Of a stretch of DNA of 64,000 nt, positions 32,640-64,000 are shown piece after piece (the stretch's first letter is position 1; each line of letters opens with the position of its first letter). This DNA is from Sialis fuliginosa (taxonomy: Eukaryota; Arthropoda; Insecta; Megaloptera; Sialidae). The stretch spans positions 16,316,701 through 16,380,700 of the forward strand of contig OY540816.1 in assembly GCA_961205875.1 (NCBI GenBank), in the 5' to 3' direction. Below the pieces are notes generated by a model, which saw nothing but the letters and a program-made list of their open reading frames with translations, had not been told where the DNA came from and ran no database searches. A program made the translations under genes and the position numbers.

Positions 32640-32647
32640 TTATTATG
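32640..32647 (+). repeat. 8-bp target-site duplication, left
   Basis: TTATTATG directly before CAGGGCCGGCC. Its partner is at 38606-38613. Confidence 0.85.
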
Positions 32648-33333
32648 CAGGGCCGGCCGAACGGCCAGGCGACCCAGGCGACAGCCTGGGGCGCTAATTT
32701 CGTGGGGGCGCCAATTATTTTAAACTTTTTTTCTATGTTCTGTTCTAGGGCGCCAAATTTAAGCTATATATATTTTTTGAATAATAGTTTTGATTTTTTC
32801 TGCAAAATAATTCATTTTACTTAATAAAATGCTTAATATCAAAAATAAATTATTTATTAAACATTTTTTTACAAAACTTGAAAAGCACAGTGCCAAATCT
32901 GTGGGTGGCTTTGCTAATTCTTGTAACAATTCCGGTTAGTGTAGCTAGTGGTGAAAGAAGTTTTAGTAAATTAAAATAATTCATAAAAACTTATTTGCAA
33001 TCGGCTATGATAGAAGATAGGTTGAATAATTTGGCTATTCTTTCAATTGAAAATAAGGTTGTAGCAAACCTCAATTTTGAGACAGCAATCGATAATTTTG
33101 CAGATATGAAAGCCAGGAAGAAATCTTTTATATAATTTTAGTTATATTATATATTATTTATCAATTATATGTTATATTATATTATTATATTACACTAATG
33201 AATTAATAACAAGATAATTTTCTCACGCTTTTTTTTTTTTGTGCGGATAATTTTTAATGATCGTCACTGTGGCGGTGGAAAGGGGGGGGGCGTCAAAAGA
33301 AATCTCGCCTGGGGCGCCAGAATCGCAAAGGCC
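32648..33333 (+). mobile_element. hAT copy 1 (right end truncated), with dimerisation-domain remnant
   Basis: 686 bp. Positions 32908-33135 encode the hAT C-terminal dimerisation region: VALLILVTIPVSVASGERSFSKLK, then TAA, then FIKTYLQSAMIEDRLNN... to an ordinary stop. The ASGERSFSKLK motif is the hallmark of hAT transposase tails. The internal TAA and the absence of the catalytic core make it non-autonomous. Confidence 0.8.
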
Positions 33334-33398
33334 AAAAAAATATTGTACATTTTTGCTAATAGATACCTCTGAAAACATTGTTCACGAATGTTAACAAG

Positions 33399-33415
33399 AT
33401 GCAATTAAGGGTTAA
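33399..33415 (+). repeat. Left arm of the palindrome bracketing the array
   Basis: ATGCAATTAAGGGTTAA, the exact complement of 36908-36924. Placed side by side, with the TTAA shared, the two arms make a perfect 30-bp palindrome. Confidence 0.85.
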
Positions 33416-36400
33416 GAGCATCACGCACTTAAAGACCTTCGCGTGCTACTTCCCTTTTTAAAAACAAGTTAAAACTAAAAAAACAAATTAAAACTCATAC
33501 GCTAACAAAGAAGTAAATTGAATAGTTAATATCTCAGCTTGGCGCGATCGAAGAGACTCCAGTTTTTTTTTTAAATGTAGCTTACACTATTATCTTTAAG
33601 AGCATCACGCACTTAAAGACCTTCGCGTGCTCCTTCCCTTTTTAAAAACAAGTTAAAACTAAAAAAAAACAAATTAAAACTCATACGCTAACAAAGAAGT
33701 AAATTGAATAGTTAATATCTCAGCTTGGCGCGATCGAAGAGACTCCAGTTTTTTTTTAAAATGTAGCTTACACTATTATCTTTAAGAGCATCACGCACTT
33801 AAAGACCTTCGCGTGCTCCTTCCCTTTTTAAAAACAAGTTAAAACTAAAAAAACAAATTAAAACTCATACGCTAACAAAGAAGTAAATTGAATAGTTAAT
33901 ATCTCAGCTTGGCGCGATCGAAGAGACTCCAGTTTTTTTTTTAAATGTAGCTTACACTATTATCTTTAAGAGCATCACGCACTTAAAGACCTTCGCGTGC
34001 TCCTTCCCTTTTTAAAAACAAGTTAAAACTAAAAAAACAAATTAAAACTCATACGCTAACAAAGAAGTAAATTGAATAGTTAATATCTCAGCTTGGCGCG
34101 ATCGAAGAGACTCCAGTTTTTTTTAAAATGTAGCTTACACTATTATCTTTAAGAGCATCACGCACTTAAAGACCTTCGCGTGCTCCTTCCCTTTTTAAAA
34201 ACAAGTTAAAACTAAAAAAACAAATTAAAACTCATACGCTAACAAAGAAGTAAATTGAATAGTTAATATCTCAGCTTGGCGCGATCGAAGAGACTCCAGT
34301 TTTTTTTTAAAATGTAGCTTACACTATTATCTTTAAGAGCATCACGCACTTAAAAACCTTCGCGTGCTCCTTCCCTTTTTAAAAACAAGTTAAAACTAAA
34401 AAAACAAATTAAAACTCATACGCTAACAAAGAAGTAAATTGAATAGTTAATATCTCAGCTTGGCGCGATCGAAGAGACTCCAGTTTTTTTTAAAATGTAG
34501 CTTACACTATTATCTTTAAGAGCATCACGCACTTAAAGACCTTCGCGTGCTCCTTCCCTTTTTAAAAACAAGTTAAAACTAAAAAAACAAATTAAAACTC
34601 ATACGCTAACAAAGAAGTAAATTGAATAGTTAATATCTCAGCTTGGCGCGATCGAAGAGACTCCAGTTTTTTTTTAAAATGTAGCTTACACTATTATCTT
34701 TAAGAGCATCACGCACTTAAAGACCTTCGCGTGCTCCTTCCCTTTTTAAAAACAAGTTAAAACTAAAAAAACAAATTAAAACTCATACGCTAACAAAGAA
34801 GTAAATTGAATAGTTAATATCTCAGCTTGGCGCGATCGAAGAGACTCCAGTTTTTTTTTAAATGTAGCTTACACTATTATCTTTAAGAGCATCACGCACT
34901 TAAAGACCTTCGCGTGCTCCTTCCCTTTTTAAAAACAAGTTAAAACTAAAAAAACAAATTAAAACTCATACGCTAACAAAGAAGTAAATTGAATAGTTAA
35001 TATCTCAGCTTGGCGCGATCGAAGAGACTCCAGTTTTTTTTTAAAATGTAGCTTACACTATTATCTTTAAGAGCATCACGCACTTAAAGACCTTCCCGTG
35101 CTCCTTCCCTTTTTAAAAACAAGTTAAAACTAAAAAAACAAATTAAAACTCATACGCTAACAAAGAAGTAAATTGAATAGTTAATATCTCAGCTTGGCGC
35201 GATCGAAGAGACTCCAGTTTTTTTTTAAAATGTAGCTTACACTATTATCTTTAAGAGCATCACGCACTTAAAGACCTTCGCGTGCTCCTTCCCTTTTTAA
35301 AAACAAGTTAAAACTAAAAAAACAAATTAAAACTCATACGCTAACAAAGAAGTAAATTGAATAGTTAATATCTCAGCTTGGCGCGATCGAAGAGACTCCA
35401 GTTTTTTTTTAAATGTAGCTTACACTATTATCTTTAAGAGCATCACGCACTTAAAGACCTTCGCGTGCTCCTTCCCTTTTTAAAAACAAGTTAAAACTAA
35501 AAAAAAACAAATTAAAACTCATACGCTAACAAAGAAGTAAATTGAATAGTTAATATCTCAGCTTGGCGCGATCGAAGAGACTCCAGTTTTTTTTTAAAAT
35601 GTAGCTTACACTATTATCTTTAAGAGCATCACGCACTTAAAGACCTTCGCGTGCTCCTTCCCTTTTTAAAAACAAGTTAAAACTAAAAAAACAAATTAAA
35701 ACTCATACGCTAACAAAGAAGTAAATTGAATAGTTAATATCTCAGCTTGGCGCGATCGAAGAGACTCCAGTTTTTTTTTAAAATGTAGCTTACACTATTA
35801 TCTTTAAGAGCATCACGCACTTAAAGACCTTCGCGTGCTCCTTCCCTTTTTAAAAACAAGTTAAAACTAAAAAAACAAATTAAAACTCATACGCTAACAA
35901 AGAAGTAAATTGAATAGTTAATATCTCAGCTTGGCGCGATCGAAGAGACTCCAGTTTTTTTTAAAATGTAGCTTACACTATTATCTTTAAGAGCATCACG
36001 CACTTAAAGACCTTCGCGTGCTCCTTCCCTTTTTAAAAACAAGTTAAAACTAAAAAAACAAATTAAAACTCATACGCTAACAAAGAAGTAAATTGAATAG
36101 TTAATATCTCAGCTTGGCGCGATCGAAGAGACTCCAGTTTTTTTTTAAATGTAGCTTACACTATTATCTTTAAGAGCATCACGCACTTAAAGACCTTCGC
36201 GTGCTCCTTCCCTTTTTAAAAACAAGTTAAAACTAAAAAAAAACAAATTAAAACTCATACGCTAACAAAGAAGTAAATTGAATAGTTAATATCTCAGCTT
36301 GGCGCGATCGAAGAGACTCCAGTTTTTTTTTAAAATGTAGCTTACACTATTATCTTTAAGAGCATCACGCACTTAAAGACCTTCGCGTGCTCCTTCCCTT

Positions 36401-36909
36401 TTTAAAAACAAGTTAAAACTAAAAAAACAAATTAAAACTCATACGCTAACAAAGAAGTAAATTGAATAGTTAATATCTCAGCTTGGTGCGATCGAGGAGA
36501 CTCCAGTTTTTTTTTTAAATGTAGCTTACACTATTATCTTTAAGAGCATCACGCACTTAAAGACCTTCGCGTGCTCCTTCCCTTTTTAAAAACAAGTTAA
36601 AACTAAAAAAACAAATTAAAACTCATACGCTAACAAAGAAGTAAATTGAATAGTTAATATCTCAGCTTGGTGCGATCGAGGAGACTCCAGTTTTTTTTTT
36701 AAATGTAGCTTACACTATTATCTTTAAGAGCATCACGCACTTAAAGACCTTCGCGTGCTCCTTCCCTTTTTAAAAACAAGTTAAAACTAAAAAAACAAAT
36801 TAAAACTCATACGCTAACAAAGAAGTAAATTGAATAATTAATATCTCAACTTGGCGCGATCGAGGAGACTCCAGTTTTTTTTTTAAATGTAGCTTACACT
36901 ATTATCTTT
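33414..36909 (+). repeat. Satellite array, 19 units of about 184 bp
   Basis: Unit starts (AAGAGCATCACGCAC) at 33414, 33598, 33784, 33968, 34151, 34335, 34518, 34702, 34885, 35069, 35253, 35436, 35622, 35806, 35989, 36172, 36358, 36542 and 36726; unit lengths 183-186. Differences are almost all in two homopolymers (A7/A9 and T8-T10) plus rare substitutions. The last three units carry a shared GATCGAGG variant. Each unit has a CACGC...GCGTG short stem and GGCGCGATCG. No ORF. High homogeneity means recent amplification or ongoing homogenisation. Confidence 0.97.
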
Positions 36910-36924
36910 AACCCTTAATTGCAT
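36908..36924 (+). repeat. Right arm of the palindrome bracketing the array
   Basis: TTAACCCTTAATTGCAT, complement of 33399-33415. Confidence 0.85.
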
Positions 36925-37906
36925 GATTTTTTTTATTTTAACGAAATATTAATTTTTTGAAGCAGAAGTAGGCTAGATTTAAGGGAAAAATAGTAAAAAA
37001 AATCTTTTTTTGAAAATAAAAGTTTATTTCATTTTTTTGACTTTGTAAACAAATGTTAACGTCATGCAATTTTATTATAATTCAAATGGTTCATAACAGA
37101 GGAGAAATATCTGCCATGAGTGTCATGGGACTTTCTTATACGTAGTACAGAGATTAAACAGTGTGCTTGTTAGCCATAGGTACCATGGGACTTTCTTATA
37201 CGTAATACTGATAGTGAACAGTGTAGGTGAATCTAAATAATTACATAAAAAATTTCTTTCTGGCTAAATTATAAATGTTGGAAAAAAATGTATAGGGAAT
37301 AAATTATAGATAATAACATACTCGACATTTTTTATCTAAAACATTTTTTCTTAATTCAAAAATAATTCGTTAATTCAAAAATTTACAAGAGTAAACATCT
37401 GATTTCAGTTATTACGTTAAAAAAAATCACTTGTTATATAATGGAGAGAATAATATTACCTTTTTTTTATTATTAAAATTATATTTTTATAAATTATATA
37501 ATTATTATTAACTATAAACAATGAGGATATGTACATTTGTTAACAAAACTTAGTTTTATTGCTCTTTCGACAAGTGCATGATGTAAACATACGTTAACAA
37601 ATAAAAACCATTACATAAATATCAGAACCGAAACAAAAAAATCAAATAAATAATATGAATCACAATGTACATACCTGGTAAACAACACTATACAAAAAGT
37701 TAATTAGCAAAATCACGCGTATTATAAAAATTAGACGATAGTCGATACTTCTTCAGCGACAATTCGCTCTAATTTAAAAAAACGGTTACTCTGATGAATG
37801 TAACAATATATTTTTTTTAATATGCCATCCGTTCATCATTATTGATAAATTTTCAATTTATTAGAATCTATAGATTGGTTTAATACTTGAATAAGTAAAA
37901 AAAAAA
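36925..37906. other. Cargo DNA of the composite element, right of the array
   Basis: AT-rich. A 60-bp direct repeat ('catgggactttcttatacgt' at 37124 and 37184) and several TTAAC words ('aatgttaacgtcatgcaatt' at about 37053 resembles 'aatgttaacaagatgcaatt' at 33387) suggest the cargo is itself an older repeat. No coding frame. Confidence 0.5.
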
Positions 37907-38605
37907 CAGGGCCGGCCGAACGGCCAGGCGACCCAGGCGACAGCCTGGGGCGCTAATTTCGTGGGGGCGCCAATTATTTTAAACTTTTTTTCTATGTTCT
38001 GTTCTAGGGCGCCAAATTTAAGCTATATATATTTTTTGAATAATAGTTTTGATTTTTTCTGCAAAATAATTCATTTTACTTAATAAAATGCTTAATATCA
38101 AAAATAAATTATTTATTAAACATTTTTTTACAAAACTTGAAAAGCACAGTGCCAAATCTGTGGGTGGCTTTGCTAATTCTTGTAACAATTCCGGTTAGTG
38201 TAGCTAGTGGTGAAAGAAGTTTTAGTAAATTAAAATAATTCATAAAAACTTATTTGCAATCGGCTATGATAGAAGATAGGTTGAATAATTTGGCTATTCT
38301 TTCAATTGAAAATAAGGTTGTAGCAAACCTCAATTTTGAGACAGCAATCGATAATTTTGCAGATATGAAAGCCAGGAAGAAATCTTTTATATAATTTTAG
38401 TTATATTATATATTATTTATCAATTATATGTTATATTATATTATTATATTACACTAATGAATTAATAACAAGATAATTTTCTCACGCTTTTTTTTTTTTT
38501 TGTGCGGATAATTTTTAATGATCGTCACTGTGGCGGTGGAGGGGGGTGGGGGGGTGTCAAAAAAAAATCTCGCCTGGGGCGCCAGAATCGCAAAGGCCGG
38601 CTCTG
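37907..38605 (+). mobile_element. hAT copy 2 (both ends present)
   Basis: 699 bp, nearly identical to copy 1, with the same dimerisation-domain remnant and the same internal TAA. Differences are mainly in T- and G-runs near the right end. It ends GGCCGGCTCTG and is followed by TTATTATG. Its left end abuts an A-run. Confidence 0.85.
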
Positions 38606-38613
38606 TTATTATG
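38606..38613 (+). repeat. 8-bp target-site duplication, right
   Basis: TTATTATG, identical to 32640-32647. Confidence 0.85.
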
Positions 38614-63908: not shown

Positions 63909-63988
63909 TATATCTATTTTTATTGGAAAAAGTTATTTGGCGTTAGGGTATATCTATTTTTATTGGAAAAAGTTATTTGGCGTTAGGG
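63909..63988 (+). repeat. 40-bp unit, two exact tandem copies
   Basis: 'tatatctatttttattggaa'...'gttatttggcgttaggg' repeats perfectly at 63909-63948 and 63949-63988 near the window edge; the array could continue beyond it only after the divergent 'tagattatac'. Confidence 0.9.
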
Positions 63989-64000
63989 TAGATTATACAT

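Follow-up and report, generated by a model that had tools for sequence, protein, structure and literature searches.

The stretch of DNA analyzed here (the window) covers 64,000 nucleotides of the megalopteran insect Sialis fuliginosa (GCA_961205875.1, contig OY540816.1, positions 16,316,701 to 16,380,700). Between its positions 32640 and 38613, two copies of a hAT element in direct orientation enclose an array of satellite DNA and two pieces of a piggyBac-like element, and an 8-bp duplication flanks the whole. We examined this arrangement as a candidate composite transposon with the following parts.

32640..32647, no strand: left outer 8-bp target-site duplication (TTATTATG)
32648..33333, + strand: non-autonomous left hAT copy; it keeps the 5' terminus CAGGGCCGGCC and has lost its 3' terminus (it ends in GGCC, without GGCTCTG)
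32893..33135, + strand: remnant of a hAT transposase dimerization domain in the left copy, with one internal stop (PF05699, E 2.9e-9)
33334..33411, + strand: piggyBac-like right-end piece; an A-run left over from the inner GTAAAAAA duplication, followed by TATTG and onwards to the ATGCAATTAAGGG terminus
33412..36911, + strand: array of the 184-bp satellite, with exactly 19 units and one additional TTAA; the TTAAs at its edges resemble a piggyBac-type duplication turned inside out
36912..37906, + strand: piggyBac-like left-end piece, from the CCCTTAATTGCAT terminus to AATAAGT and A10 (a lengthened inner GTAAAAAA duplication); a transposase domain was not found
37907..38605, + strand: right hAT copy, both termini intact (CAGGGCCGGCC and GGCCGGCTCTG)
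38152..38394: right-copy equivalent of the dimerization remnant, of the same sequence as the left; 155 related proteins
38606..38613, no strand: right outer 8-bp target-site duplication (TTATTATG)

An initial annotation, made from the letters of the window, had described two nearly identical direct hAT copies of 686 and 699 bp, the left one without its final GGCTCTG, with one 8-mer at the outermost ends. All of this was borne out. The alignment of the two copies comprises 682 matches, 4 mismatches and 13 gap columns, with the first ~580 bp identical and all differences confined to the final ~120 bp. Inside the unit TTATTATG occurs at 32640 and 38606 only, and four further copies lie elsewhere in the window (12928, 28247, 38866 and 42060); two random 8-mers drawn from the window would be equal by chance with a frequency of about 1.3e-4. 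The assignment to the hAT superfamily is based on the 8-bp outer duplication, on the transposase remnant, which in the left copy gives a partial match to the hAT dimerization domain through one stop, and on short inverted termini, CAGGGCCGGCC and GGCCGGCTCTG differing by 1 mismatch in 11 in a by-eye comparison. The 155 relatives of the right-copy remnant were collected at E<=1e-3, and few are named among the best 120 of them, including ZMYM1-like and hAT-dimerization proteins.

The cargo between the two copies measures 4,573 bp and consists of 78 bp, a tandem repeat of 19 x 184 bp and 995 bp. At the left edge of the array ATGCAATTAAGGG is followed by TTAA, and at the right edge TTAA is followed by CCCTTAATTGCAT, that is, GGG abuts TTAA and TTAA abuts CCC, forming a perfect 13-bp inverted terminus with exactly 19 units between. 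These edges look like both ends of a piggyBac-like element together with its TTAA duplication, oriented away from each other. The TTAA duplication and inverted termini beginning with CCC are found in the window as well as in the un-permuted copies described below, and a CCCT start at TTAA is the most prevalent form among the beetle piggyBac termini reported in PMC12732532. Since the left cargo piece gave no Pfam match to a piggyBac transposase in six frames, we call this part of the cargo piggyBac-like only, and at most a non-autonomous member. Judged from the sequence, closing the cargo into a circle gives a satellite array interrupted once, by a ~1.06-kb piggyBac-like insert, which hAT in turn split at the A-run. 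The initial annotation had correctly seen cargo between two hAT copies and missed both this permuted content and the multi-copy family to which the unit belongs. Within the left piggyBac-like piece, two 52-bp direct repeats (37113-37224) are 83% alike and are present in other copies too. A search of the cargo for RNA genes returned two matches at E<=5, both well under gathering scores.

Dispersal and movement of the family

A genome search for further copies of the unit, which the initial annotation had suggested, was run on the species' own assembly (392 Mb, 20 contigs; the window is C8:16316701-16380700). As 37 of 3,878 candidates were scored, the counts are lower bounds: at least 63 matches, grouped by position into at least 36 loci, window included. 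Full stretches were read at 17 other loci and end pieces at further loci. One order holds wherever both ends were read, running from the left hAT through the right piggyBac-like piece, the satellite and the left piggyBac-like piece to the right hAT, and at some loci parts are deleted. The satellite has between 7 and 39 units at the loci read end to end, and the array of C6_12.78 is longer than 11 kb, its left end lying beyond the stretch read. None of three exact patterns was found in viral or prokaryote collections, which may omit the window's own genome.

Both outer ends were readable at 15 loci, and identical 8-mers flank 14 of them, which correspond to 12 distinct sites: TTATTATG in the window, CATATTGG at three loci within the same host repeat, and CTGGCACC, GTAAGCTA, GTCAAAAT, CGGGTCAC, ATTCATGC, GTGCCAAT, TCCCTGGA, GTTATAAT, CTGGGGTA and GTTACAGG. 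As a control, 204 mispaired left and right flanks were compared, and the best match was 6/8. Complete single hAT copies never had self-matching flanks (0/17), which assigns the 8-bp duplications to the composite; these loci were sampled via the composite, so the figure says little on solo copies elsewhere. As expected of a macrotransposon, the cargo lies between two copies of one element, of which one is deleted or excised at some loci, and the unit is defined by its outer rather than its inner ends.

Inherited differences between the two hAT copies are informative in this context. The left copy carries the 3' deletion that joins AAAGGC to TAAAAAATATTG at 11 loci, and the window has a close variant in which GGCC joins AAAAAAA. 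One marker within AAAAGAAA reads G in 6 of the 7 truncated-left copies scored and A in 13 of 14 right copies; at a second, just before it, 10 of the 11 left copies scored read AA and 12 of 14 right copies read GG. Similarly, C9_19.42 (flanked by CTGGCACC) and C1_46.11 (flanked by ATTCATGC) have one common deletion junction, fusing hAT positions 1-156 to satellite, and different outer duplications; these two loci also have, in common with two elements on contig C3, three variants of the left piggyBac-like piece that are absent in other composites. The left deletion, the left and right markers and the internal deletion junction thus recur across sites, which argues that the unit was inherited and moved whole. 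On these comparisons we consider it highly probable that the feature in the window is one copy of a dispersed family of composite hAT transposons (macrotransposons) that carries satellite DNA and has moved as a unit, a confidence that extends to the family and to its unit movement and excludes the head-to-tail founder step treated below. The initial annotation had proposed that hAT, cargo and hAT jumped as one, and the duplications at 12 sites, the recurrent markers and the internal deletion at two sites agree with that proposal.

Several observations weigh against this interpretation or narrow its base. All 4 intact-left copies show A rather than G at the AAAAGAAA marker, and both markers have exceptions in the left copy of C2_37.55 and the right copy of C6_15.29, the second marker also in the right copy of C4_5.00; these exceptions look like conversion between copies. 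C4_5.00 lacks its first 21 bp, and with them the left terminus, and its flanks match at 6/8 only. Three of the 14 matching loci represent one site in another repeat and were counted once, 13 of the 36 loci have an end unread or rearranged, and solo hAT copies are under-sampled because the composite itself was the bait.

The leading alternative, which we nevertheless rate as very improbable, is that satellite circles (extrachromosomal circular DNA) bearing a piggyBac-like piece and a hAT entered each locus separately, by recombining into a solo hAT already resident there, whose duplication then lies outside. At any single locus the same permutation and outer duplication would result, and satellite circles with reintegration have been proposed in beetles (PMC13192020). 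The left and right copies do differ within loci, for example at 7/690 positions in C12_16.40, yet at 1/670 in C4_5.00. Left unexplained by such events are the recurrent left and right markers, the left 3' deletion at 11 loci and the one internal junction found with two duplications. Independent circle insertion at every site was rejected on the common markers and the deletion, and circles are retained for the founder only. We give next to no credence to an assembly artefact, in which a graph path through the common hAT repeat would have placed a satellite contig within the locus of a solo hAT: one locus in isolation would show an identical structure, but 14 loci at 12 sites differ in outer duplications, unit numbers, private deletions and lineage-specific markers, and the first eight loci lie on contigs of 19-40 Mb.

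At C6_15.29 (L009/L010), C2_37.55 (L015) and C6_22.16 (L016), the composite sits at one identical position (CATATTGG) of another dispersed repeat. The right side of this host repeat contains a ~1-kb palindrome with arms of ~500 bp that are 88% alike, and is also found at C2:37407390-37407590 (L039); the composite is here a passenger in a fold-back-like repeat. At C10:16895640-16896840 (L044) a right hAT is interrupted at base 142 by the left arm of the host repeat, after which come a full hAT and ATTACATA; the structure looks as if it arose by template switching, or by conversion with a CATATTGG locus as the source. In C6_22.16 an insert of ~885 bp lies within the left hAT (about 2547-3431 of L016).

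Inner junctions and the founder

The inner junctions of relatives with an intact left copy give access to an earlier state of the unit. At 4/4 such loci the left hAT is followed by GTAAAAAA and TATTG, and right copies of the intact-left lineage are preceded by GATAA and GTAAAAAA. These flanks show GTAAAAAA to be a single hAT target duplication that permutation has separated onto the two inner sides. In the truncated-left lineage the A-run before the right copy comprises 8-10 A (9 loci read), and the left copy lacks 9 bp across its end. The initial annotation had taken the inner junctions for A-runs without target duplication; the A-runs are there, and intact relatives show them to be the halves of one GTAAAAAA duplication.

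Read as a circle, and with the inner junctions of its relatives, the cargo predicts an un-permuted element within satellite that contains an empty hAT site, GGATAAGTAAAAAATATTG. The search of the genome for this junction with <=1 mismatch gave 19 matches, 4 of them exact, and 3 with the backward control pattern. Three of the four exact matches were inspected as candidates, and the fourth is the left-excision scar at C8_15.63. Two, C3:2773344 and C3:14136325, are the predicted un-permuted element, with both ends, satellite on either side and no hAT. The element at C3:2.77M has TTAA on both flanks, one terminus that reads CCCTTTATTGCAT and so contains one mismatch, and at least 13 satellite units (the first partial) on one side and ~1 unit on the other. 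The element at C3:14.14M has the CCCTTAATTGCAT terminus, with TTAA on one flank and TAAA on the other. The match at C8:2735062, which lies outside satellite, retains no more of the piggyBac-like element than about its final 100 bp. In the left piggyBac-like piece the average difference among 18 composites is 0.63%, as against 1.1-2.2% between composites and the two C3 elements, so that the spread is recent on that scale.

Since an un-permuted element without hAT is present at two loci, we infer that the founder derived from a tandem or circular satellite molecule. The history that we propose begins with insertion of the ~1.06-kb piggyBac-like element into a TTAA of the 184-bp satellite array, the state that survives at the two C3 loci. 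The 699-bp non-autonomous hAT then entered the piggyBac-like element at GTAAAAAA, as both inner junctions of intact composites show. The circular permutation in turn calls for satellite DNA arranged head to tail, each period bearing one piggyBac(hAT), formed by tandem duplication of the array or as a satellite circle or concatemer, in which two direct hAT copies would come to bound one satellite period. Supplied in trans, a hAT transposase would next have brought together the left copy's 5' end and the right copy's 3' end and mobilized the whole block; the products, 8-bp duplications, are seen at at least 12 sites.

In our judgement, which is not a computed figure, the founder probably arose as a tandem or concatemer that subsequently transposed, and recombination of a circle into a resident hAT, confined to the founding event, is an unlikely though conceivable origin. 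The history is weakened because the joining of two hAT copies around one satellite period was not observed, the 243 kb examined containing no un-permuted piggyBac(hAT) in satellite, and because no source of transposase was identified.

Elements of the Helentron superfamily are not known to make a target duplication. An ordinary element with an internal satellite, either a Helentron or a terminal-inverted-repeat element with central tandem repeats, adjoined by two unrelated hATs, would resemble the oyster Helentrons that hold central satellite-like repeats (PMC7492417), but the inverted ATGCAATTAAGGG at the array edges faces the wrong way with no duplication adjoining its outer side, an un-permuted element exists, and the inner hAT flanks are one common duplication, which makes this explanation exceedingly improbable. 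A Helentron with central repeats was rejected on the outer 8-bp duplications and on array edges that the TTAA and CCC termini account for; no search for Helentron end motifs was made.

Solo excision and the lost inner end

The 23 loci with two flanks read fall into 12 with a truncated left copy (10 sites, window included), 4 with an intact left copy, 5 from which the left copy is lost and 2 with a deleted left copy. Where the left hAT is lost, the outer duplication is kept wholly or partly: 8/8 at C14_11.01 and C9_12.49, 7/8 at C7_20.52, 6 bp at C14_14.62 and 5 bp at C8_15.63. The right hAT is lost at three loci with both flanks read (C1_46.61, C3_0.095 and C12_18.45) and at three more where the left flank is unread (C8_22.40, C8_22.27 and C4_0.16). 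The excision footprints vary among the left-lost loci and the right-lost loci with both flanks read, and at the latter, too, the outer duplication is whole or partial. Scars of either copy suggest that a hAT retaining both its ends remains able to excise on its own.

The bases before the right copy indicate which lineage these scars come from. An A6 run is found at 5/5 left-lost loci, the last two of which were read specifically to test this marker, and at 3/3 read intact-left loci, and at 0/9 of the truncated-left loci read (of 12). The truncated left copy was therefore not seen to leave alone, which fits a block on solo excision once its own 3' end is gone. The intact-left loci C12_16.40 and C6_27.67, the latter with an internally deleted right part, also carry perfect outer duplications, and loss of the inner end would thus stabilize the unit rather than permit its movement. 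The initial annotation had held that loss of the inner right end forced the pairing of distant ends. Its emphasis on the truncated copy is upheld insofar as this copy was not seen to excise alone; the claim that the loss was required fails, as C12_16.40 and C6_27.67 moved with an intact left copy.

The last step of the proposed history would accordingly be the loss of the left copy's 3' end in one lineage, barring its solo exit; this structure is found at the 12 truncated-left loci, and the advantage it conferred is presumed. We propose tentatively, and with a little less than even confidence, that a satellite circle or concatemer with one hAT became a self-spreading vehicle for the satellite and was later stabilized when loss of the inner end halted solo excision. 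If true, selection would act among copies in favor of a crippled inner end, a new principle for the persistence of composite transposons in animals.

Towards the edges of the window lie two features apart from the composite. A 141-aa open frame on the minus strand (972-1397) has 18 relatives, of which the three named are all from beetles (Oryctes, Holotrichia and Acanthoscelides), two with a GATA domain; the frame itself matches no Pfam family. At 63909-63990, at the window edge, a perfect 40-bp unit is repeated twice.

Relation to known systems

The usual answer to how short satellite arrays come to lie in euchromatin is 'transposition or circles', and one concrete route is seen here. A single genome holds the satellite with its piggyBac-like insert as it was before hAT arrived, composites in which both hATs are still intact, others whose inner end is crippled, and the scars left where one or the other hAT departed alone. 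In tenebrionid beetles, satellite circles and TCAST transposon-like elements have been described, with dispersal by circles or transposition proposed (PMC13192020, PMC3411249); routes are proposed in those accounts, whereas in the insect unit several steps can be read from surviving intermediates. Related capacities of hAT elements are reported from flies, where hAT episomes are able to reintegrate (PMC2803484), and from fungi, where captured genes are amplified by hAT elements (PMC6710886). Cg_HINE Helentrons of the Pacific oyster are DNA transposons that spread tandem, satellite-like repeats; as presented in PMC7492417 they are single elements with central repeats, whereas the array described here is bounded by two hAT copies.

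A closer parallel in logic is offered by the Teratorn-like elements of fish, for which it is proposed that a piggyBac-like transposon enters a concatemeric molecule and that one period between two copies moves (PMC10175614). The concatemer logic is thus the same, proposed there for piggyBac and a herpesvirus. In Teratorn, as that review describes it, the cargo is the herpesvirus and the mover piggyBac, whereas in the insect unit the cargo is satellite, the mover hAT, and the un-permuted state before hAT insertion survives. In the animal literature surveyed, the word 'macrotransposon' was met in this review only, in its reference list. No animal composite hAT family with satellite cargo appeared among the titles and abstract openings listed, a coverage that leaves out most subscription journals.

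The closest system is maize Ac/Ds, of whose macrotransposons the composite is, on present sequence comparisons, an animal variant; Huang and Dooner (2008) is reportedly the reference cited for them. In maize, a pair of hAT copies serves as the two ends of a single unit, and the DNA between them moves (PMC9910405, PMC4270019, PMC3260210), a modified 8-bp duplication remaining at excision (PMC9910405, PMC3260210). Common to both is the use of two hAT copies as the ends of one larger mobile unit. As these sources present them, the Ac/Ds cases are alleles of a plant genetic system, whereas the insect unit has been naturally amplified at at least 12 sites, carries satellite cargo of permuted origin, and has its inner end disabled in the commonest lineage. 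The Ac/Ds principle is thereby extended to an animal, in which such a unit can become a multi-copy family.

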